Below are positions 7,143 through 25,894 of a stretch of 25,943 bases of DNA, piece by piece; positions within the stretch are counted from its first letter, which is position 1; every line of letters begins with the position of its first letter. The translations under genes were made by a program, and so were the position numbers. The notes beneath the pieces were generated by a model, which saw only the letters and a list, made by a program, of their open reading frames with translations, did no database searches and was not told the origin of the DNA. Source of the DNA: a virus; IMG/VR virus record IMGVR_UViG_3300021960_000447, positions 1 to 25,943 of that record; one strand, 5' to 3'.

Positions 7143-8093
7143 ATGGAAGTCACAGATTTACATGTAGGAAAACAATTACAAGTTGTTTCTAATCTTCCTG
7201 GAGGAATACCAGGACCTCCTAATGTTGCTCATGGTGCAGGTGCAGCAGCAATTCCTGGTGCTGTTTGGGCAGATGGAGGACTTCATGTTGGAGCACCACT
7301 TTTTGCACCTGGAGAAACGGAAGTTGGTTTTTGTAGACCACCAGCAACGAATACGTTAGCATTTGCAAATTCCCTCAAATCAATCTTTGCAATTTCGGGA
7401 AGAGGTGGAAGTAATGGTGTTACTGATGTTATTATTGGAGATCCAATTGGACCTGTTGGTATTAGCGTAAATGCTACAATTATCAATATCATATCACCAC
7501 TCACTAATGGTGTTGGTGCTCTTAACTGGACTGGAACAAAATCTTTTACTGGTGTAAAGCAGCAAACTGGATTAGAAGTTCGTTCTGGTGCTGTTGCTGA
7601 TGTTGGTAAAGAATCTACGATTGGTAATGTTGTAGAAAGTGGTGCAAGGGTTATTAATGGGTCTTTAAATGTCACTAAGTCAATTACTACTGGATCCATA
7701 ACAGCAAATTTTGGTGCATTTACAAAAGTTGCTGCACCATTCAAACAATTTGATATTCCACATCCAACAAAACCAAATCATAGATTGGTTCATACTTGTT
7801 TAGAGGGTCCAGAAATTGGAGTTTATTACAGAGGTAGATTAATTAATAATAATGTGATAGAATTACCCGAATATTGGCGTGGTCTTGTAGATCCAGAAAC
7901 TATCACAGTAAATCTAACACCACATGAATCCTATCAAGAACTATTTGTGAAAACAATTGAGTGGGGAACTAAGATTTTTGTTGTAAATAATTCAAGCGGA
8001 CCTATCAATTGCAGCTATACAGTTTATGCAAAACGATGCGATGTTGAAGATTTGGTCGTTGAATATGAAGGCACCGAAATGAGAGAGAGATAA
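7143..8093 (+). CDS. Structural protein with C-terminal fibre-type beta domain
   Basis: A 316-residue protein starting 1 base after the preceding stop. The N-terminal ~75 residues are Gly/Pro/Ala-rich (PGAVWADGGLHVGAPLF), and residues 80-200 are repetitive, short beta strands typical of trimeric phage fibres. Residues about 202-305 form a distinct domain beginning FDIPHPTKPNHRLVHTCLEG and continuing with YRGRL, ELPEYWRGLV, VNLTPH and a Cys/Arg-rich end. The pattern (HP...LVH, E-x-P, Y-x-G, LP-x-Y, LTP) resembles a C-terminal domain I associate with bacterial and phage fibre or surface proteins, function unknown. The same domain recurs alone in the gene at 9589. Most likely a baseplate or short-fibre component. 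Confidence 0.6.
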   Translation: MEVTDLHVGKQLQVVSNLPGGIPGPPNVAHGAGAAAIPGAVWADGGLHVGAPLFAPGETEVGFCRPPATNTLAFANSLKSIFAISGRGGSNGVTDVIIGDPIGPVGISVNATIINIISPLTNGVGALNWTGTKSFTGVKQQTGLEVRSGAVADVGKESTIGNVVESGARVINGSLNVTKSITTGSITANFGAFTKVAAPFKQFDIPHPTKPNHRLVHTCLEGPEIGVYYRGRLINNNVIELPEYWRGLVDPETITVNLTPHESYQELFVKTIEWGTKIFVVNNSSGPINCSYTVYAKRCDVEDLVVEYEGTEMRER

Positions 8094-8095
8094 AA

Positions 8096-9592
8096 ATGGG
8101 AATTGCATCAGATATTATTTCAGAATTAAGTCAAAAGAAACAACAGGCATATGAAGGTGTTGAGTTTCTTCAAAAGAACATTCTTGTTAAGGATGTTAAT
8201 AAAGAAAAGTATGATGCTGCAATCGTAAGTATTGATGCAGATTTATTTGTAGAAGTTAATAATGTTAATGATAAACTTCAAGATGTAAAAGATGCATACC
8301 AAGCACGGGTAGATGTTGGTTGCAGAACAGATATGTTCTGGAGATTGGTGAGTATCAGCACGTATACTGAAAATCCAGATGGAACTGGACCGGTTACAAA
8401 CCTTTATAATTTAGAGGTGACAAGGTTATCACTTTCTGGTTATCAAGGTGTTGGACTTGGAACAACTGCAAGTGGACCAGGAACAGTTGGTTATGGTACA
8501 ACAGGTGGCGCTACTTATTTTACAGAAGATGGACAAACCATTAATTATCCTCCTAGAAGTATTTTTGGATTTGAAGAGAAAAATCTTTATGGTCTCAAGT
8601 ATTATGATGAACCATCGCAAAGAGATATTGGCGATACCTTCGTAACAAGTTTTATTGGAACAATCAGTATTGGTTCCAATGTTCTTACAGTGATGTCTCC
8701 AATTGGGTCTGGGACAACTTTAGGAATTACTACAGGTCAATTAATTACTGCAAATAAAACGGGCATCTTCCCAACATCTTCGGGAGAAATTGTTGCAATT
8801 GGAACCGCACTTGCAGATTTAAATGTTCTATCGGGTGTTGGAAATACTATTGGTATTGGAACAACAACACAATTGGTAAGCACACTTACATTAGATTCTG
8901 TTGTATCAGTAGGTGCATCAGCTCCAGAGCAAGATGGTTCTTATGTAACATTTACCGTGTTCCAAAGTCCAGCTGGTATTGGAACAACTGCTATTAGTTA
9001 CTTTAGAATACCATTTACTTCCAATCCATTCAGTCCACAGTCATTGGGAATTATGAATAGTTCTCAGTATGGAATTGGTAAATCAGTTTTCTATGATAAC
9101 TCTGGATACAGTTCTAACTTACAAACTTGGAGACCAGAGTTTGAAAGTCCAGAAATTAGTGATGACTTCCCTGCTGTAACAGAACCAGAAGTTGGTGCTG
9201 GTAAAATCTATTATACTGTTGGATTCTCAAGTTATCCTGCAGTTCCATTTGGTAGTGGAAGAGCACCTGAAGGAACTACAGTTGCATTAACTGCAGCACA
9301 GGTTGCATTAGTTACTCTTTATGAAAACCCATCTGCTTGCTCAACCCAAGAAACTAATTTGACAAACGCTATTTCAGATGCAAATACTGCAGAAGCAAAT
9401 ATCCAATCTGATCTTGGTGATTTTAACTATAAGATATCAGCAGTTAATGCAATGCGTGACTTAAGAACTGATATACAATTAGAAATCTGGGGTAATCGTC
9501 AAGCAATTGGTGGTCTTGCTGATGATATAGATAAGTATGATACTGCGATTGAGTATCTTGGCGTTACAACTATCACATCCTTATTACCATGA
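8096..9592 (+). CDS. Virion structural protein of unknown role
   Basis: A 498-residue protein starting 2 bases after the previous stop and overlapping the next gene by 4 bases (ATGA). Residues 1-70 and about 410-490 are helical, coiled-coil-like and rich in Asn/Asp/Gln (for example ETNLTNAISDANTAEANIQ). The middle is beta-rich with repeated Gly-Ile/Val-Gly-Thr units (GVGLGTTASGPGT, TIGIGTTTQ, AGIGTTAIS) that also occur in the fibre genes farther downstream. This helix-beta-helix layout suggests a trimeric tail or baseplate component whose ends form coiled coils. It lies wholly inside the tail gene run. I recognise the style from T4-like cyanophages but not a named family. Confidence 0.6.
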   Translation: MGIASDIISELSQKKQQAYEGVEFLQKNILVKDVNKEKYDAAIVSIDADLFVEVNNVNDKLQDVKDAYQARVDVGCRTDMFWRLVSISTYTENPDGTGPVTNLYNLEVTRLSLSGYQGVGLGTTASGPGTVGYGTTGGATYFTEDGQTINYPPRSIFGFEEKNLYGLKYYDEPSQRDIGDTFVTSFIGTISIGSNVLTVMSPIGSGTTLGITTGQLITANKTGIFPTSSGEIVAIGTALADLNVLSGVGNTIGIGTTTQLVSTLTLDSVVSVGASAPEQDGSYVTFTVFQSPAGIGTTAISYFRIPFTSNPFSPQSLGIMNSSQYGIGKSVFYDNSGYSSNLQTWRPEFESPEISDDFPAVTEPEVGAGKIYYTVGFSSYPAVPFGSGRAPEGTTVALTAAQVALVTLYENPSACSTQETNLTNAISDANTAEANIQSDLGDFNYKISAVNAMRDLRTDIQLEIWGNRQAIGGLADDIDKYDTAIEYLGVTTITSLLP

Positions 9593-9927
9593 TTACAATT
9601 AGTCATCCTTCAGTTAAAGATTATAACTTAAATCTTGAAGGTTTACTTGGACCCGAAAATGCTGTATTCTTTAGAGGTAGAGTTACAAGTAAAAATGAAA
9701 TCAATCTTCCAAGTTACTGGGAAGCATTAGTAGAACAAACAACAATCTCAGTTCATTTAACTCCAATTGGTGCTCATCAGAATGTAATTGTAAAACGTAT
9801 TGGTGAGAATAAAGTATTTCTTCAACCACAAGGAGGAATGCCAATTGATTGTTACTATTTGATTATTGGTGAGCGCAAGGATGTGCCACGTCTCAAAGCG
9901 GAACAAAGAGTTGGCACAGAGGACTGA
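9589..9927 (+). CDS. Stand-alone fibre-type beta domain protein
   Basis: A 112-residue protein that is essentially one copy of the domain at the C-terminus of the gene at 7143: HP near the start, LEGLLGPENAVFFRGRV, LPSYWEALV, ISVHLTPIG, VKRIG and a final IGERKD. Shared features are GPE, a YRG/FRG turn, LP-x-YW, LTP and the closing strand. Its start overlaps the preceding stop (ATGA), so it is probably translationally coupled. The two domain copies may assemble on the same structure. It is the last gene before the promoter at 9911, which lies inside its final codons, so it ends the first late block. Confidence 0.65.
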   Translation: MITISHPSVKDYNLNLEGLLGPENAVFFRGRVTSKNEINLPSYWEALVEQTTISVHLTPIGAHQNVIVKRIGENKVFLQPQGGMPIDCYYLIIGERKDVPRLKAEQRVGTED

Positions 9928-11168: not shown

Positions 11169-11780
11169 GTGAAATCTGACTATTATATTGAAAAAATCAG
11201 TAAAAAGGAAGCAGAGGAACTTTTACTGAAATATCATTATCTTAAAGATATATCAAAAACTTTTAAAAGTGGATATAACTACGGATTATTTAAAAAAAAT
11301 GATTTTTCACCATTAAAGATTGGTGGTTTATTGGGAGTTTGTATTTTTACTGGACTCCCTGTTCCAGAAATAGCAAAAGGAGCATTTGAACTTGAAAGAC
11401 ACGAACAACAAGGACTCTTTGAACTCTCCCGATTATGCATCAGACCTGATACGCAATCTGATGAATATAACATCACTTCTTGGTTTGTGTCAAAAGCGAT
11501 TAGACAATTTCGGAGAGATACTGAAGTTAAAGCAATCCTTTCTTATGCTGATTCAGATCACCATTCTGGTACAATTTATCGCGCTTGCAACTTTAAGTAC
11601 TACGGTCTCACGGATCGAAAAAAAGATTTCTATTATTCAGACGGAACTAAACACTCTCGTGGAAAAATAAATGGTGCTGAGGGTGAATGGAGAAATAGAA
11701 CAAGAAAGCATAGATACTTGATGGTATTTGATAAAAACCTTAAGGTCTTGTGGAAAGAAGAAAAATATGGTATAATATAA
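11169..11780 (+). CDS. Mom-like DNA adenine-modification protein (GNAT-type fold)
   Basis: A 203-residue protein starting with GTG, 3 bases after the previous stop. Residues 84-93 (FELSRLCIRP) and 121-146 (KAILSYADSD, HHSGTIYRACNF, KYYG) match the pattern of phage Mu Mom and relatives: a substrate strand with L-x-RL-x-I, an SYAD turn, then GTIY-x-A-x-NF. Mom proteins have an acetyltransferase-like fold and modify adenine in phage DNA, protecting it from host restriction enzymes. The N-terminal EELLLKYHYLKD also fits the family's YHYL segment. It ends the small-gene block, and its last codons contain a promoter -10 box. A different GNAT acyltransferase acting on another substrate is the alternative. 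Confidence 0.65.
   Translation: MKSDYYIEKISKKEAEELLLKYHYLKDISKTFKSGYNYGLFKKNDFSPLKIGGLLGVCIFTGLPVPEIAKGAFELERHEQQGLFELSRLCIRPDTQSDEYNITSWFVSKAIRQFRRDTEVKAILSYADSDHHSGTIYRACNFKYYGLTDRKKDFYYSDGTKHSRGKINGAEGEWRNRTRKHRYLMVFDKNLKVLWKEEKYGII
11748..11776 (+). promoter_or_regulatory. Sigma-70-type promoter at end of Mom-like gene
   Basis: TTGTGG at 11748-11753, a 17-base spacer and a perfect TATAAT at 11771-11776. It overlaps the last ten codons of the Mom-like gene and points at a ~60-base interval that ends in a strong terminator, with no gene between. Expected transcription start near 11783. Confidence 0.5.
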
Positions 11781-19362: not shown

Positions 19363-21294
19363 GTGGCTGTAAATAAGAACTTTGTTGTCCGCAATGGATT
19401 AGAGGTAAATTCAAACCTCATTCTTGCAGATGCTGTAGCAAATAAAGTTGGTATTGGTTCTACTGCACCAAGATTTGAATTAGATGTTGCTGGTGGAATT
19501 GGTGCTACAACAGTAGATACTAATAGCATCATCGTATCAGGTATCTCTACAGTTCTTCAGGAGTTCAATGTAGGACTTGGTGGAACTCTTTTCACAGCAG
19601 CAGTAAATTCTGTTGGTATTGGAACTGCAATACCAGCATATGTTCTTGATGTTCGTTCACCAGTTTCTACAGGACAAACAGCACTCTATGTTCAGGGTGA
19701 TGTAAGAATTACTGGTGATTTAGCAGTTGATGATATTACTTTTGATCAAGCAACAATCAATAATTTAACAGTATCACAAGGAACAGAGACACAATTCCTT
19801 GTTGTATCTGGTGTTTCTACTTATGGCGGCAACTTAGATATTAATGCCGCTGTTGATATTACTGGATACACTAATATTGATGATGATGTTAATATTACAG
19901 GTACTCTAAACGTTGGTGGTATTACTACCATCACTAATACTACTGATTCTACAACTTATAATAATGGTGCTCTTGTAATTGATGGTGGTCTCGGTGTTGA
20001 AAAATCCGTCAACATTGGCGGTGACCTTGATGTAACAGGTAATGTTTATATCGGTGGAACTACTGTTTCATTAAGAGGTACTGATGTTTTTATTGAAAAC
20101 AAGGACATTGTTCTTGGATACACTACTACAATAACCCCAAATGATGATACTGCAAACCATGCTGGTATTGCAATTGCATCAACTGAAGGAAGTCCTTTAG
20201 TACCATTCTCTGTTTCTGGGATTAACACACTTCCAGATACTTACAAACAGATGATGTGGTTCCGAAGTGGAACTCTTGGGTTCTCCACTGATATGTTTGG
20301 ATTTAATTATGGTGTTGCTATTGGAACCACAACGGTAGCAGATGGCGTTCGTCTTGCAGTTGGTTCTAATATAAGAATTACTGATGATACAATCAATACT
20401 GTTAATCTTAATGTTAATGGTATTGTTACATCCACATCAGGTGTCGCAACATATTATGGGGATGGTCAATATTTAAATCTAAAAGGTAGTCCATATACTG
20501 GTATTGGAATTAACACTGCTGGCGGACTTGTTGGATTTGGTGTTACATATCTACACCTTTATGGTAGTGGTGTTTCTACCACTTTCTATGATGCAAACTC
20601 TGGAATTGCTACTGTATTCTTCCAAGGCGGTGGTGGAGGAGCAACAGTTAGCGTAAGTACAGTTGCACCATTATCCCCAACATCAGGTGACCTTTGGTAT
20701 AATAATGACCTTGCAAGAACTTTCATCTACTATGATGAAGTTACTCTTGGTATTGGTTCTACTGCTGTATGGATTGATGCTGCACCATTTAATGTTGGTG
20801 GTAATTATCTGACTAAGCTTGGTGATTCAATGCTTGCTGGTCTTGGAGTTACCGTTGGAACTGCAAGCACTCCAAGTGTTTACTTTAATGGTGATATACA
20901 AACTGGTTTCTTCTCACCAACTGCAGGAAACTTTAATGTTGTATCAGTTGGTTCTACAGTTCTAAATGTAAACACATCTGGTATTATTGTAACTGGTATC
21001 ACAACTGCAACTGACTTTGATTCATTATCTGATATTAACTATAAAGAGAATATTGTTACAGTTAATAATGCACTACTTAAAGTTGAGCAACTTCGTGGTG
21101 TTAAATTTGATTGGAAGGAATCGGGTAGTCCTTCTTATGGTGTGATTGCACAAGAACTGGAGCAAGTATTACCAGAACTCGTTCATGGTAATGATCCAAA
21201 AACCGTGAACTATAATGGTATCATTGGCGTATTGATTGAAGCAATCAAAGAACTCAAAGCAGAGGTTGAAGAGTTGAAGTCAAACCAAAATTGA
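19363..21294 (+). CDS. Tail fibre with C-terminal S74 self-cleaving chaperone
   Basis: A 643-residue protein with a GTG start at 19363, supported by GGGGAGAG just upstream. The N-terminus (MAVNKNFVVRNGLEVNSNLI) is a common fibre-anchoring segment of T4-like cyanophages. Repeats of VGIGST/VGIGTA plus ELDVAGG-type strands form the shaft. Residues 553-643 are an intramolecular chaperone of the endosialidase/S74 type: LSDINYKENI with Ser556 and Lys561 as candidate self-cleavage dyad, VKFDWK, YGVIAQELEQVLPELV, VNYNGIIGVLIEAIKELK and a terminal coiled coil. These chaperones trimerise the fibre, then cut themselves off. The gene has its own late promoter and is followed by a gap with a weak terminator. 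Confidence 0.85.
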   Translation: MAVNKNFVVRNGLEVNSNLILADAVANKVGIGSTAPRFELDVAGGIGATTVDTNSIIVSGISTVLQEFNVGLGGTLFTAAVNSVGIGTAIPAYVLDVRSPVSTGQTALYVQGDVRITGDLAVDDITFDQATINNLTVSQGTETQFLVVSGVSTYGGNLDINAAVDITGYTNIDDDVNITGTLNVGGITTITNTTDSTTYNNGALVIDGGLGVEKSVNIGGDLDVTGNVYIGGTTVSLRGTDVFIENKDIVLGYTTTITPNDDTANHAGIAIASTEGSPLVPFSVSGINTLPDTYKQMMWFRSGTLGFSTDMFGFNYGVAIGTTTVADGVRLAVGSNIRITDDTINTVNLNVNGIVTSTSGVATYYGDGQYLNLKGSPYTGIGINTAGGLVGFGVTYLHLYGSGVSTTFYDANSGIATVFFQGGGGGATVSVSTVAPLSPTSGDLWYNNDLARTFIYYDEVTLGIGSTAVWIDAAPFNVGGNYLTKLGDSMLAGLGVTVGTASTPSVYFNGDIQTGFFSPTAGNFNVVSVGSTVLNVNTSGIIVTGITTATDFDSLSDINYKENIVTVNNALLKVEQLRGVKFDWKESGSPSYGVIAQELEQVLPELVHGNDPKTVNYNGIIGVLIEAIKELKAEVEELKSNQN

Positions 21295-21387: not shown

Positions 21388-22242
21388 ATGGCGATTAAGA
21401 TTTCAGGAACTACTGTAATTGACGACAGTAGAAATCTAATTAATATCAACTCTGGACTTGGGGTTGGTATTCAGTCAGGTGGAGCAGTTATAGGTTCTGG
21501 TGTTACCACACTTAACTTTGTTGGTACAGGTAATACTTTTGCTATTAGTGGTGGAATCGTAGATATTAGTATTTCTGGTGGTGCTGGCGGTGGTGGAGGT
21601 TCTGGATTATTCAATACTGGCATCACAAGTGCTGTTGGATACACAGTAACTGATTCAATGGCTACTGCATACACTGCAACGGATACTGCAGTTATTCATT
21701 CTATTCATATTACCAACATTGATGGTACAAACAGTGCAGACATCAGTGGTCAGTTATATGCTGGTGCATATTCAATTGCATACACTGTACCAGTTCCTGC
21801 TGGTTCATCAGTAGAACTATTGAAGCAACCAAAAGTATTGAATACTGGTGAGACAATTCAACTTCAAGCAAGTGCTGTTGGAGATTTACATGCAACAATC
21901 TCAATTGAACCACAAGCAGGAAGCACTGCATATATTGGCGTAGGTACTGATATTACTGCTGCAGCAACTTATACTGACTTATGGACTGCAACCGCAGATT
22001 CAGTTCTTCAGGGTATTCTTCTTTCTAATGATGATGGTGCAAGTGATGTAAAAGCAACGGTTGTATGGACTGATGGAAGCAATAATATCCAAGGATACTT
22101 TACTTATGATATGGTCATTCCTGCTGATGCAACAGTTGAAATTTTAGAACAACCAAAGTTCTTACCAAGTGGTTATAAAGTCAGAGTACAAGCAAACCAA
22201 GCAAATAGATTAGAAGCAATTCTTTCTGCAAAAACCGCTTGA
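21388..22242 (+). CDS. Fibre-associated structural protein with duplicated beta domain
   Basis: A 284-residue protein. The N-terminus (MAIKISGTTVIDDSRNLINI) is a fibre-attachment type segment like that of other cyanophage fibre genes. Residues 45-72 end in a GGAGGGGGSG linker. Then come two related beta units, about 92-173 and 195-281. The clearest match is YTVPVPAGSSVELLKQPKVL against YDMVIPADATVEILEQPKFL, each followed by alternating strands and ending HATISIEP or EAILSAKT. This is an internal tandem duplication. The gene follows a late promoter motif and is 12 bases upstream of the first RCC1 propeller gene. Likely a short fibre or fibre-tip base; the repeated domain is not one I can name. 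Confidence 0.65.
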   Translation: MAIKISGTTVIDDSRNLININSGLGVGIQSGGAVIGSGVTTLNFVGTGNTFAISGGIVDISISGGAGGGGGSGLFNTGITSAVGYTVTDSMATAYTATDTAVIHSIHITNIDGTNSADISGQLYAGAYSIAYTVPVPAGSSVELLKQPKVLNTGETIQLQASAVGDLHATISIEPQAGSTAYIGVGTDITAAATYTDLWTATADSVLQGILLSNDDGASDVKATVVWTDGSNNIQGYFTYDMVIPADATVEILEQPKFLPSGYKVRVQANQANRLEAILSAKTA

Positions 22243-22254
22243 TAGGAGGATATC

Positions 22255-23385
22255 ATGGCTACTGTTAAAAAGGGTGTATGGGACTTACAACAAGTCAGAG
22301 ACCAAAATCTTGAAGGTGCATGGAATTATGATTCCTCTGTTGATCCTGGAGAATTATATGTATGGGGTTATAATTCCAATGCTAGTTTAGGATTAAATGA
22401 TAGAGCATCACGTTCATCACCGATACAAATTCCTGGAACACAATGGATAAGTGGAGATGGATCACAAAACAATAGTGCTTTTATAAAGAGCGATGGAACA
22501 TTATGGTCGTGGGGTAGTAATGGTAGTGGTCAATTAGGACAAAATAATACAACACAATATTCATCACCAGTACAAGTTCCAGGAACACAATGGAGTTCAG
22601 TATCTCAAGGTAATCATACGACAGCTATTAAGACCGATGGAACCTTATGGTCTTGGGGATATAATAGATTTGGTGCAGTTGGAAACAATACTGCAGGAAT
22701 TGGTAATTATGTTTCGTCACCAACACAAATTCCAGGAACGCAATGGGTATCTGTTTTTAGTGAAGCATTTTCTACAAGTGCAACAAAATCTGATGGAACC
22801 TTATGGTCTTGGGGTTACAATAATTATGGTAGATTGGGTCAAAATGATATAATCCCATACTCGTCGCCAAGACAAATTCCAGGAACACAATGGGAATCTG
22901 GTCACATTAGAGAAGCTCATGCTTTAGCAAAAAAAACTGACGGAACCTTATGGTCTTGGGGAAGAAATGGTGAAGGTCAACTCGGAGATAACACTGTAAT
23001 ACCACGTTCATCACCAGTTCAAATACCAGGAACACTGTGGAGCACTATTCAGCCAATGATATATAGTTCTGTTGCAAGAAAAACTGATGGAACCTTGTGG
23101 TCATGGGGATATGGCGCATATGGTGTCTCAGGTCAAAATAATCAAACATCATATTCATCACCAGTTCAAATTCCAGGAACACAATGGAGTAGTACTGCTT
23201 CTGGTAAATATCACATTTATGCATTTAAAACAGATAGTACACTATGGGCATGGGGATATGGAGGAAATGGAAATCTAGGTGTTAACAACGTCACTGAATA
23301 TTCATCACCAACACAAATTCCAGGAACGAACTGGATTAGGATTTATAGTGGAAACTATCATGGACTAGCGATCAAATCCATATAA
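22255..23385 (+). CDS. RCC1-type seven-repeat beta-propeller, fibre-associated adhesin candidate
   Basis: A 376-residue protein with a perfect AGGAGG (22244-22249) before its ATG. Residues 1-30 form a head with KKGVWDLQQV. Residues 34-376 are seven repeats of about 48 residues built as D-GTLWSWG, a YN-x-x-G-x-LGQN turn, SSP-x-QIPGTQW, and a variable strand ending A-x-KT/S. This is the RCC1/ATS1 pattern, which closes a seven-bladed beta-propeller. The repeat cores are nearly constant, while the segment after GTQW varies, as expected for a binding surface. No signal peptide or membrane segment. In a fibre-gene cluster the likely role is receptor or glycan binding on the host surface (inference). 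A close paralogue lies at 24155. Confidence 0.8.
   Translation: MATVKKGVWDLQQVRDQNLEGAWNYDSSVDPGELYVWGYNSNASLGLNDRASRSSPIQIPGTQWISGDGSQNNSAFIKSDGTLWSWGSNGSGQLGQNNTTQYSSPVQVPGTQWSSVSQGNHTTAIKTDGTLWSWGYNRFGAVGNNTAGIGNYVSSPTQIPGTQWVSVFSEAFSTSATKSDGTLWSWGYNNYGRLGQNDIIPYSSPRQIPGTQWESGHIREAHALAKKTDGTLWSWGRNGEGQLGDNTVIPRSSPVQIPGTLWSTIQPMIYSSVARKTDGTLWSWGYGAYGVSGQNNQTSYSSPVQIPGTQWSSTASGKYHIYAFKTDSTLWAWGYGGNGNLGVNNVTEYSSPTQIPGTNWIRIYSGNYHGLAIKSI
22354..23385 (+). repeat. Seven tandem RCC1-type repeats, copy 1
   Basis: Seven in-frame units of about 145 bases. Near-constant DNA segments recur in most units, such as CCAGGAACACAATGG and GATGGAACCTTATGG. These give recombination points within the gene and with the second copy. 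Confidence 0.8.
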
Positions 23386-23395
23386 CTAATAAACT

Positions 23396-23403
23396 TATAA
23401 ATA
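23396..23403 (+). promoter_or_regulatory. Late promoter TATAAATA
   Basis: A perfect T4-type late octamer at 23396-23403 in the 39-base gap after the first propeller gene and 21 bases before the next start codon. Confidence 0.7.
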
Positions 23404-23424
23404 CTTCTAAAGTTTCACATACCG

Positions 23425-24150
23425 ATGAAAATATTCAAGTTCTTATCAGTAGATGCAAAAACTGGTATCTCCGTAGAAATTGAAAGACCAATAGAGGGGC
23501 CTGCAAAACCTAATCTTCCTGGAATGGGAGAAGTGTTTTATTTTGGTGGTTGGATGTATGCAACTGTAGGTAATACTGCAGAAGCAAATCCAGAGAACTA
23601 TATTTTTGAGGTAACTCAAGCAGATTTTGATGAAGCGATTGCTGCTGAATTTGCTAACTTCAAAACATCAAGAATTGATGATGCATATAGAGAAGAGAAA
23701 GATATTCGTGCAGGACTCTTTGGTAAGTATCATGATTCTGCTGCAGTTGCTGGTGTTTATAAGTATGAGCAGGCAAAAGCACTGTTAGCAGATTCAACTG
23801 CTGATGCACCTGATGTAGTAGCAGAAGCAACTGCAAGAGGTGTTGATGCTGCAGTGATTGCTCAAAGAATTGTTGATAATCATGAAGCATTCAGATTAAC
23901 TGAAGCAAAACTTGCTGGACTTCGTGGTAAGATTGTTGATAGATTGAATGGTCTAACTTTTGATGCAACTGATGCACTTGGTAGTTGGAGAGAATTGGTT
24001 GAAAGAAAAGAAGTGATTGGTACTTATCCTGAAGTTGTTGATGGTCCTGGTGGTCCTGCTGGTGGTGCAAGACCAGAAGGAAATGATGTTGAGGTTGGGT
24101 ATTATATTCCAAACTTATCACAGCGTTGGGAATGGATGAACAAGGGTTGA
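23425..24150 (+). CDS. Protein resembling tail fibre assembly/attachment factors
   Basis: A 241-residue protein behind its own late promoter. Residues 1-70 are beta-rich (MKIFKFLSVDAKTGISVEIE ... FYFGGWMYATVG). Residues about 75-195 are helical with an FKTSRIDDAYREEKDIRAGL segment and RGVDAAVIAQRIV, NHEAFRLTEAKLAGLR; the pattern loosely recalls the DUF4376-type helical domain of phage fibre assembly proteins. A Gly/Pro-rich loop (DGPGGPAGGARP, about 210-220) precedes a short tail LSQRWEWMNKG. It sits between the two propeller genes and ends 4 bases before the second, suggesting it serves them as chaperone or adaptor. That role is inferred from position; family membership is uncertain. Confidence 0.55.
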   Translation: MKIFKFLSVDAKTGISVEIERPIEGPAKPNLPGMGEVFYFGGWMYATVGNTAEANPENYIFEVTQADFDEAIAAEFANFKTSRIDDAYREEKDIRAGLFGKYHDSAAVAGVYKYEQAKALLADSTADAPDVVAEATARGVDAAVIAQRIVDNHEAFRLTEAKLAGLRGKIVDRLNGLTFDATDALGSWRELVERKEVIGTYPEVVDGPGGPAGGARPEGNDVEVGYYIPNLSQRWEWMNKG

Positions 24151-24154
24151 TAGT

Positions 24155-25300
24155 ATGATTACTTCAACTACGAGTGGTGTTTGGGAACTTGATGATGTTT
24201 ATGCGAAGCGTAATGCCGAAAGGTGGCCACCTGGAAATAATGGACTGTTTACTTGGGGAAGAAATGGTTTTGGAGTACTAGGACAAAATAACAAAACATA
24301 TTATTCATCACCAGTGCAAGTTCCAGGAACACAGTGGAGCAAACTATCAACAGGAATTTTTTGGTCACTAGGACTTAAAACAGATAATACTTTATGGGTA
24401 TGGGGAGATAATAACAGAGCAAGATTGGGTCTTAATACTGTTAATTCTACCACATCACAATCATCACCGGTACAACTTCCAGGAACACAGTGGAGTGATG
24501 TAAGGTGTGCATATGCTACATCTTTAGCTTTAAAATCCGATGGAACTTTGTGGTCTTGGGGATATAATCAAGTAACTGGTCAACTAGGTCAAAACAATGA
24601 AACACAATATTCATCACCAGTCCAAATTCCAGGTACACAGTGGAATGCTATTTCTGCAGCATATTATACATCTTATGCAACAAAAACTGATGGAACATTA
24701 TGGGCATGGGGTTATAATCCAAATGGAGAAATTGGAGACAATAGTGTAATACCACGTTCTTCTCCTACACAAGTACCAGGAACACAATGGAATAAATTTG
24801 ATGGTGGTGGTAATGGTAGGCTCTATGCAATTAAAACTGATGGAACATTGTGGGTTTGGGGTTATAATGGTGGACCGTTCCCTCTTAATGGAACTACTCC
24901 CAGATCATCACCAACACAAGTTCCAGGCACACAATGGTCAACCATTTCCGCCACTTATTATAATGGATATGCAACTAAAACTGATGGAACATTGTGGGCA
25001 TGGGGAGGCAATTCATATGGGGCATTAGGTCAAAATGACAATATACATAGATCATCACCAATCCAAATTCCAGGCACACAGTGGGCTAATGATACTCTTC
25101 ATGGACCATCAGCATATCATACTTTGATGAGAAAAACAGATGGAACATTATGGGGATGGGGAATTAGTAATTTGGGTTCTCTGGGAATAAATGAAAGCGG
25201 TGCTGCTCCTCGTTCTTCACCAATACAGATTTCTGGTACTGGATGGATAAACCCAGCAGTAGGATATTACTCTTCAGCAGCAATTAAACCTACTTATTAA
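24155..25300 (+). CDS. Second RCC1-type seven-repeat beta-propeller
   Basis: A 381-residue paralogue of the protein at 22255, starting 4 bases after the previous gene. Its head again carries GVW-[DE]-L (TSGVWELDDV). Residues 31-381 are seven repeats of about 48-50 residues with DGTLWAWG, LGQN, SSP-x-QIPGTQW. Blade 2 has an insertion (LNTVNSTTSQSSP), blade 5 lacks the usual LGQN turn (GGPFPLNG), and blade 6 has a longer variable loop (ANDTLHGPSAYH). Variation is again concentrated after GTQW. With the first copy it suggests two alternative or paired adhesins with the same attachment head. It ends 6 bases before the oxygenase gene. Confidence 0.8.
   Translation: MITSTTSGVWELDDVYAKRNAERWPPGNNGLFTWGRNGFGVLGQNNKTYYSSPVQVPGTQWSKLSTGIFWSLGLKTDNTLWVWGDNNRARLGLNTVNSTTSQSSPVQLPGTQWSDVRCAYATSLALKSDGTLWSWGYNQVTGQLGQNNETQYSSPVQIPGTQWNAISAAYYTSYATKTDGTLWAWGYNPNGEIGDNSVIPRSSPTQVPGTQWNKFDGGGNGRLYAIKTDGTLWVWGYNGGPFPLNGTTPRSSPTQVPGTQWSTISATYYNGYATKTDGTLWAWGGNSYGALGQNDNIHRSSPIQIPGTQWANDTLHGPSAYHTLMRKTDGTLWGWGISNLGSLGINESGAAPRSSPIQISGTGWINPAVGYYSSAAIKPTY
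24245..25300 (+). repeat. Seven tandem RCC1-type repeats, copy 2
   Basis: Seven in-frame units of about 145-155 bases sharing CCAGGAACACA-type and ACTGATGGAACATT-type segments with the first array. The stretch GTAATACCACGTTC is shared exactly between blade 5 of copy 1 and blade 4 of copy 2, making exchange between copies plausible. Confidence 0.75.
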
Positions 25301-25306
25301 CACTTT

Positions 25307-25894
25307 ATGAATCCTTTTGAACTTATTATTATTCAACCGAATATTATTCCTCAAGAACACATACATCAACTTCTTCAACTCACCAATCAACCAACATCAA
25401 ATGCAACGGTTGGTTCTGGAGAAGAAAAAATAGAAAAAGAAACAAGACATACACTTTGGTATCCAATACCATATCCAGTTTTACAGAATCTAAATTCTGC
25501 TGTGATGTCCTGTTATAAATCATACATGGAACCAATTTATCATTCAACTGTTAAAAATATTGAACCAACACAGTTTCTTGGTTATCCTATCGGTGGTCAT
25601 TATATTGAACACAATGATAGTGAAAACTTTGAAGGTGGAAAATGGGTTAGAATTGCTCCTAGAGATATTTCAATCCTCTTTTATTTGAATGATAACTATA
25701 CTGGTGGAGAACTTGAATTTACTCAACTTGGTTTGACTATTAAACCAAAAACAGGTATGATGATAGCGTTTCCATCTTATAAAGAGTTCGCTCATAAGGT
25801 TCATCCAGTCACTTCTGGAATGAGATATTCGCTAGTAACATGGTTAGAGACAGAGAAAAAAGTTTATGAAACAGTACGAAGACAAAGGGTTTGA
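25307..25894 (+). CDS. 2OG-Fe(II) oxygenase, prolyl-4-hydroxylase type
   Basis: A 195-residue protein of the 2-oxoglutarate/iron dioxygenase superfamily. Iron ligands appear as H102-N-D104 and distal H163 in FAHKVHPVTSG; R173 in MRYSLVTW is the expected 2-oxoglutarate-binding arginine. The surrounding strands (ISILFYLNDNYTGGELEF, GMMIAFPS) are standard for the double-stranded beta-helix core. The family hydroxylates proteins or small molecules; T4-like cyanophages commonly carry several. The N-terminal ~45 residues (FELIIIQPNIIPQEHIHQLL) are the usual entry strand and helix. The substrate is unknown; a phage fibre or a host protein are candidates given the position right after the fibre genes. 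Its end overlaps the next gene by 29 bases. Confidence 0.85.
   Translation: MNPFELIIIQPNIIPQEHIHQLLQLTNQPTSNATVGSGEEKIEKETRHTLWYPIPYPVLQNLNSAVMSCYKSYMEPIYHSTVKNIEPTQFLGYPIGGHYIEHNDSENFEGGKWVRIAPRDISILFYLNDNYTGGELEFTQLGLTIKPKTGMMIAFPSYKEFAHKVHPVTSGMRYSLVTWLETEKKVYETVRRQRV

Follow-up and report, generated by a model that had tools for sequence, protein, structure and literature searches.

Genes of the fibre cluster

The window, by which we mean the whole 25,943-base IMG/VR virus fragment that was analysed, has the gene layout of a T4-like cyanophage. Its left part carries a baseplate hub/tail lysozyme and tail genes, and the window also encodes a fibre-like protein of 1944 aa, with a DNA match to tail-fibre genes of cyanophages. 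The region considered here runs in the order S74 protein, f284, RCC1a, mid241, RCC1b and 2OG-Fe(II) oxygenase (Table 1), and the oxygenase is 84–91% identical to its counterparts in the related contigs L007, L027 and L034. A sequence-only reading of this DNA had described a pair of RCC1 genes in a fibre cluster. The setting holds, since tail genes, among them that of the S74 fibre protein, precede the pair, and both genes are present, but the 241-aa gene that separates them had been overlooked.

Table 1. Features of the RCC1 cassette and its flanks, in window coordinates
Feature	Position	Strand	Basis or remark
Fibre/baseplate protein with C-terminal S74 chaperone	19363..21294	+	PF13884, 4.6e-15; tail families of PHROGs
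f284, 284-aa fibre-type protein	21388..22242	+	Directly upstream of RCC1a; L007 homologue
RCC1a, 376 aa, position-a head and seven-bladed RCC1 propeller	22255..23385	+	ORF, PF00415/PF25390, blade count, AlphaFold2, Foldseek
RCC1a head, residues 1-32, MATVKKGVWDLQQVRDQ.., proposed docking tag	22255..22350	+	Conserved by gene position
RCC1a propeller, seven blades of 47–52 residues	22351..23382	+	Blade searches, AlphaFold2
mid241, 241 aa, between RCC1a and RCC1b	23425..24150	+	Conserved in cassette; AlphaFold2 pLDDT 86.3
RCC1b, 381 aa, position-b head and seven-bladed RCC1 propeller	24155..25300	+	ORF, PF00415/PF25390, blade count
RCC1b head, residues 1-30, MITSTTSGVWELDDVYAK.., proposed docking tag	24155..24244	+	Conserved by gene position
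2OG-Fe(II) oxygenase, conserved right flank of cassette	25307..25894	+	PF13640, 1.4e-15

Divided by hand, the two RCC1 proteins yield 7 + 7 blades, as had been read from the sequence, of 48–52 residues each, and 13 of the 14 are also detected individually in the DNA, 12 of them over the cut-off. The RCC1 repeat family PF00415 matches RCC1a at 5.9e-51 (171.3 bits) and RCC1b at 3e-33 (114.6 bits) against a cut-off of 21.7, and both proteins pass the cut-off of 150 for the RCC1-like domain PF25390, with 203.8 and 177.9 respectively. The AlphaFold2 model of RCC1a (pLDDT 92.3) is a confident RCC1 propeller with four strands per blade, for which the top Foldseek matches in the PDB are the RLDs of HERC1/HERC2, UVR8 and RCC1 (TM 0.82–0.86, 20–26% identity). 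The predicted fold is thus a closed seven-bladed propeller, taken from the model for RCC1a and from sequence only for RCC1b. HERC2 RLD, UVR8 and RCC1 share this fold with RCC1a, although the blades in the window are far more alike among themselves than are those of eukaryotic RCC1-like domains.

The two propellers are 51% identical, in keeping with the paralogy that had been proposed, and the shared GVW-[DE]-L head is found as GVWDL in RCC1a and GVWEL in RCC1b. With just 30–32 residues before blade 1, neither protein has a shaft or fibre N-terminal module of its own. A short helix is predicted, with low confidence, for residues 11–19 of the RCC1a head, and the first 24 residues of the RCC1b head are identical, 24/24, to those at position b of L007.

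Orthologues of mid241 occupy the same place in L001, L007, L027, L033, L034, L037, L038, L042 and L118. Its AlphaFold2 model has a beta N-terminus followed by long helices; there was nothing over the cut-off in Pfam and no structural match, and so no known fold, in the PDB, and among viral proteins a DUF4376 protein of a phage matches weakly by structure (E 0.026). Possibly it is a fibre-assembly or adaptor protein. In another group of relatives (L048, L051, L056, L074, L080, L089, L094, L100, L101 and L107) its place between the RCC1 genes is taken by a gene of ~590 aa starting HFLSGVPRSGSTVL, which resembles a sulfotransferase P-loop.

Elsewhere in the window, a 203-aa ORF among the tail genes (11169-11780) matches Mom-like DNA modification proteins (phrog_1384, 4.2e-35). 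The ORFs at 7143-8093 and 9589-9927 both match PHROGs 17490 and 28536, of unknown function, and because they share these two families the latter may duplicate the C-terminal part of the former.

Blade number, N-termini and separate histories of head and propeller

An IMG/VR scan with RCC1b as query returned 450 related stretches, and blades were counted in 177 non-redundant complete RCC1 ORFs from the retrieved loci with a model derived from the 14 blades of the window. There are seven blades in 158 of the 177, 14 in eight and 21 in two, and part of the remaining ORFs have weak blades that the model misses; these counts come from a sample that ranking biased toward full-length matches, because the query itself had seven blades. 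The number is therefore nearly invariant apart from the multiplication of whole propellers. Having exactly seven blades is true of RCC1a and RCC1b, but it is the rule of the family rather than a peculiarity of the pair, and a change in blade number, for which the sequence-only reading had proposed to compare strains, was rejected, whole-propeller multiples aside. The spread of 4–7 blades that a simple motif count suggests is misleading.

Two ORFs of one contig, L062:4950-6347 and L062:1788-3188, the sole ORF scored with eight blades and one of two scored with five, are possible true exceptions to the seven-blade rule. One ORF, L098:6087-14639, is about 2850 aa long and carries ~54 RCC1 blades as propellers in tandem. 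At least nine propeller ORFs are present in each of two relatives, the contig of L004/L007 and the contig set of L005/L012/L027. A search for cellular relatives, a weak test in that exact short patterns were used, gave one match at 36% in a Fibrobacteres MAG.

The N-termini of the 177 ORFs are short heads in 136 cases and long extensions in 41, many of the latter being fibre-like and matching tail-fibre or virion modules. Relatives including L050 and L005 thus have proteins with their own shaft or N-terminal module, the classical mark of a fibre. L050:4567-7917 combines collagen repeats, a propeller and a C-terminal S74 chaperone in a single ORF, and in L007:6060-7985 a propeller separates the N- and C-terminal portions of an f284 homologue: residues 1–113 of f284 align with 1–109 of the L007 protein (41%) and residues 102–283 with 460–640 (78%). 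The fibre setting that had been noted for the propellers is supported by fusion to true fibre proteins in these relatives.

The order fibre–RCC1a–mid–RCC1b–2OG recurs in L001, L007, L027, L033/L049 and L034, and contigs that reach far enough carry a third RCC1 gene some kb beyond the cassette. In the window's nearest relatives the three positions have the head types GVWDLQQVRD (a), GVWELDDVY (b) and QNTWDL (c). Two head patterns were used to look for the head on proteins other than RCC1, and none was found among the loci examined, which were RCC1 genes except for L115, where an unrelated ORF fits the pattern by chance; a broader pattern gave three matches, all by chance.

We compared the kinship of heads and propellers in 24 proteins from ten genomes, asking for the nearest relative in another genome. 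The nearest head belongs to the same gene position in 24/24 cases, the difference for heads being reached in none of 2000 label shuffles, and the nearest propeller in 9/24. The mean identity of propellers is 49.0% for the same position vs 49.1% for different positions, and of 161 blades compared, 34 have the same index as their best match in another protein. The two parts of these proteins thus differ in their history.

Exchange of propellers and blades, and where blades vary

The freshwater-type contigs L048, L051, L057, L074, L080 and L094 allow the exchange to be followed in close relatives. Their nearest flanking genes are 87–99% identical (synonymous identity about 0.68–0.90) and the position-matched heads of their third genes 87–96% (0.80–0.96), but most pairs of propellers reach about 60–67% (synonymous about 0.42–0.50). 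Identity drops near the junction of head and propeller, and DNA similarity returns at the end of the gene. In L086/L101 the same pattern, with the head kept and the propeller replaced, is seen in two adjoining genes. As silent sites fall too, the propellers have been replaced by recombination, and selection on the loops is not the explanation.

Smaller units are also replaced. The DNA of L074:965 and L080:3153 is 93% and 85% identical over blades 1–2 and 66–76% over blades 3–7, and between L074:5302 and L080:7568 blade 6 alone drops, to 73%, flanked by 84% and 97%. Single blades with 93–97% identical DNA are also found at different positions or in different genes within one genome (L076, L005). 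Blade exchange, which had been suggested from the sequence, therefore extends in the relatives from single blades to whole propellers, and these relatives combine a conserved head, the proposed attachment part, with an exchanged distal part.

For the window itself, the silent-site identity with L027 is 0.73 in neighbouring genes and 0.63 in the propellers (z = 3.1), the latter being about the level of random blade pairs of the two genomes (0.64). This comparison suggests, indirectly, that the window's own propellers have been exchanged as well. Recent copying of blades inside the window was considered and set aside: silent-site identity among its blades beats codon shuffles, yet the blades of other genomes are as alike at silent sites, and we therefore do not claim it.

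Entropy along the blade has two peaks, at positions 7–20 (the A–B loop) and 33–43 (strand C, the C–D turn and strand D). Variation had been expected in the loops after GTQW; the peak after GTxW (33–43) agrees with this, while the other, in the loop from WG to SSP (7–20), had been missed. In a four-strand antiparallel meander the A–B and C–D loops lie on one face and the B–C and D–A loops on the opposite face, and with faces assigned in this way, by strand order rather than by model coordinates, loop entropy in the window's clade is 2.44 bits for A–B/C–D vs 0.65 bits for B–C/D–A (p = 0.0001). Strands C and D are as variable as the A–B/C–D loops; the variable surface therefore extends beyond the loops and beyond one face.

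In the closest non-exchanged pair, 29 recent substitutions are spread evenly with no loop or face bias, and fast mutation of the loops was rejected as an explanation. Since recent changes lack a face bias, the loop pattern reflects a long-term pool delivered by exchange and not quick mutation. The proposed diversification by loop change thus stands for the long-term variability of the A–B/C–D loops, and falls for rapid point change.

A proposed docking tag with an exchangeable propeller

We consider it probable, with room for doubt, that RCC1a and RCC1b serve a T4-like cyanophage as virion adhesins, in each of which a docking tag is joined to an exchangeable adhesin propeller that is predicted to bind the host. 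A position-specific N-terminal tag would dock each propeller at a separate place on the tail or fibre apparatus, and the rigid seven-bladed propeller would turn its variable A–B and C–D loops toward the host. Specificity would then shift mainly through recombination, the tag and flanking genes staying in place while sibling propellers of the same genome or of other phages provide substitutes for one blade, several consecutive blades or the entire propeller. The alike cores of the blades could supply the homology for recombination, with seven-blade closure kept, and mid241 would probably help folding or attachment. Docking by the head is suggested by its conservation with gene position, and receptor or host binding by the fusions and the exchange. 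A place in the virion would be expected by analogy with GAP32_001, a phage RCC1-like protein that was detected in virions by mass spectrometry (PMC5259590).

The alternative that fares best is that the propellers decorate the tail, collar or capsid without a receptor role, giving weak general adhesion or stability, and change by drift and repeat homogenisation. That neither RCC1a nor RCC1b has a fibre shaft fits this, as does the absence of face bias in recent substitutions, and concerted evolution of repeats alone can yield both exchange and the loss of positional kinship. However, replacement that reaches the level of silent sites, with heads and neighbours conserved in a close group, suggests that new propellers have repeatedly been retained, and long-term variability is concentrated on the A–B/C–D loops and strands C/D. 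We regard decoration as unlikely.

A role in organising DNA, in which the propellers bind DNA or help to pack or eject it, seems to us very unlikely, even though the fold is matched by that of RCC1, which in eukaryotes binds chromatin, and the genes fall in the PHROGs category of DNA metabolism and are named 'regulator of chromosome condensation' in databases. Such a role was put forward for the eleven RCC1-like proteins of phAPEC6 (PMC7247149), and that DNA-condensation guess fits poorly with the fibre fusions and the variability. Collagen-like and S74 fibre parts share an ORF with these propellers in relatives, the genes sit among fibre genes, and each genome has many divergent copies; moreover, fast exchange of propellers beside constant neighbours is unexpected for a DNA-packing protein.

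RCC1 folds generally serve as protein-binding platforms, and the propellers could also be scaffolds produced in infection that bind varied host proteins inside the cell. The short-head forms are indeed separate ORFs, and enzymes such as the 2OG oxygenase adjoin them, but we hold this host-takeover role to be highly improbable given the location in the structural region straight after fibre genes, the in-frame fusion of the same propellers to fibre proteins and the identification of GAP32_001 as a virion protein (PMC5259590). Rewriting of the loops by targeted reverse transcription, as the target of a diversity-generating retroelement, deserves next to no credence: a constant scaffold with variable loops near fibre genes does recall the constant scaffold and variable surface of DGR-diversified receptor-binding proteins (PMC10743442), but changes in the close pair are evenly spread, and a search whose control worked found no reverse transcriptase in the window (0/1 records) or in the nine relatives' contigs (0/9), which are fragments.

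With tagged, exchangeable adhesins as the preferred reading, a wider and more tentative view, which we would rather doubt than assert, is that aquatic phages have a modular attachment system, with as many as nine or more sibling propellers to a genome, each on a position-specific docking tag or a fibre shaft, and that single blades and whole propellers are exchanged among these at constant blade number. This would be a recombination-driven counterpart of receptor switching by retroelements. If exchange alters binding, it would offer phages a simple, repeat-based means of keeping up with host change that needs no dedicated mutator.

Phage tail fibres are well known to exchange their tips in a modular way, the attachment part being kept and the distal part replaced. 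The exchange described here differs in that the replaced part is a closed propeller, with the option of blade-by-blade replacement, and in that the attachment part can be a tag of 30 residues. Among open-licence papers, none was found that treats RCC1 propellers as phage adhesins open to exchange. RCC1-like proteins are known, however, from the Rak2-like jumbo phages (GAP32_001, 121Q_234-248, phAPEC6), where, as in the window, RCC1 repeats occur in several copies per genome (PMC5259590, PMC7247149); the excerpts of these reports suggest a DNA role and say nothing of docking heads, of fusions to fibres or of exchanged propellers. Because phage RCC1 repeats have been reported and GAP32_001 was found in virions (PMC5259590), the contrast with chiefly eukaryotic regulators from which the sequence-only reading had started was overdrawn. 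The fibre fusions and the exchange pattern make phage RCC1 genes more likely attachment proteins, and many labels such as 'regulator of chromosome condensation' or DNA metabolism on these genes would need to change.

A similar arrangement is known in Synechococcus phage S-SRM01 (gp335, gp337, gp344). Like the window, it has RCC1–small gene–RCC1 after fibre genes, then a 2OG oxygenase and a third RCC1 gene, but its head types are others and its middle gene is different. Further position-specific head families (..LLDQFVG.., DLG..LVTKDYLLDVYP and FDDLFVRKD.FLEGGLW) occur in the same gene order in L050, L052, L059, L069, L070, L076, L108 and S-SRM01 (L002), and are presumed to be a second set of docking tags.
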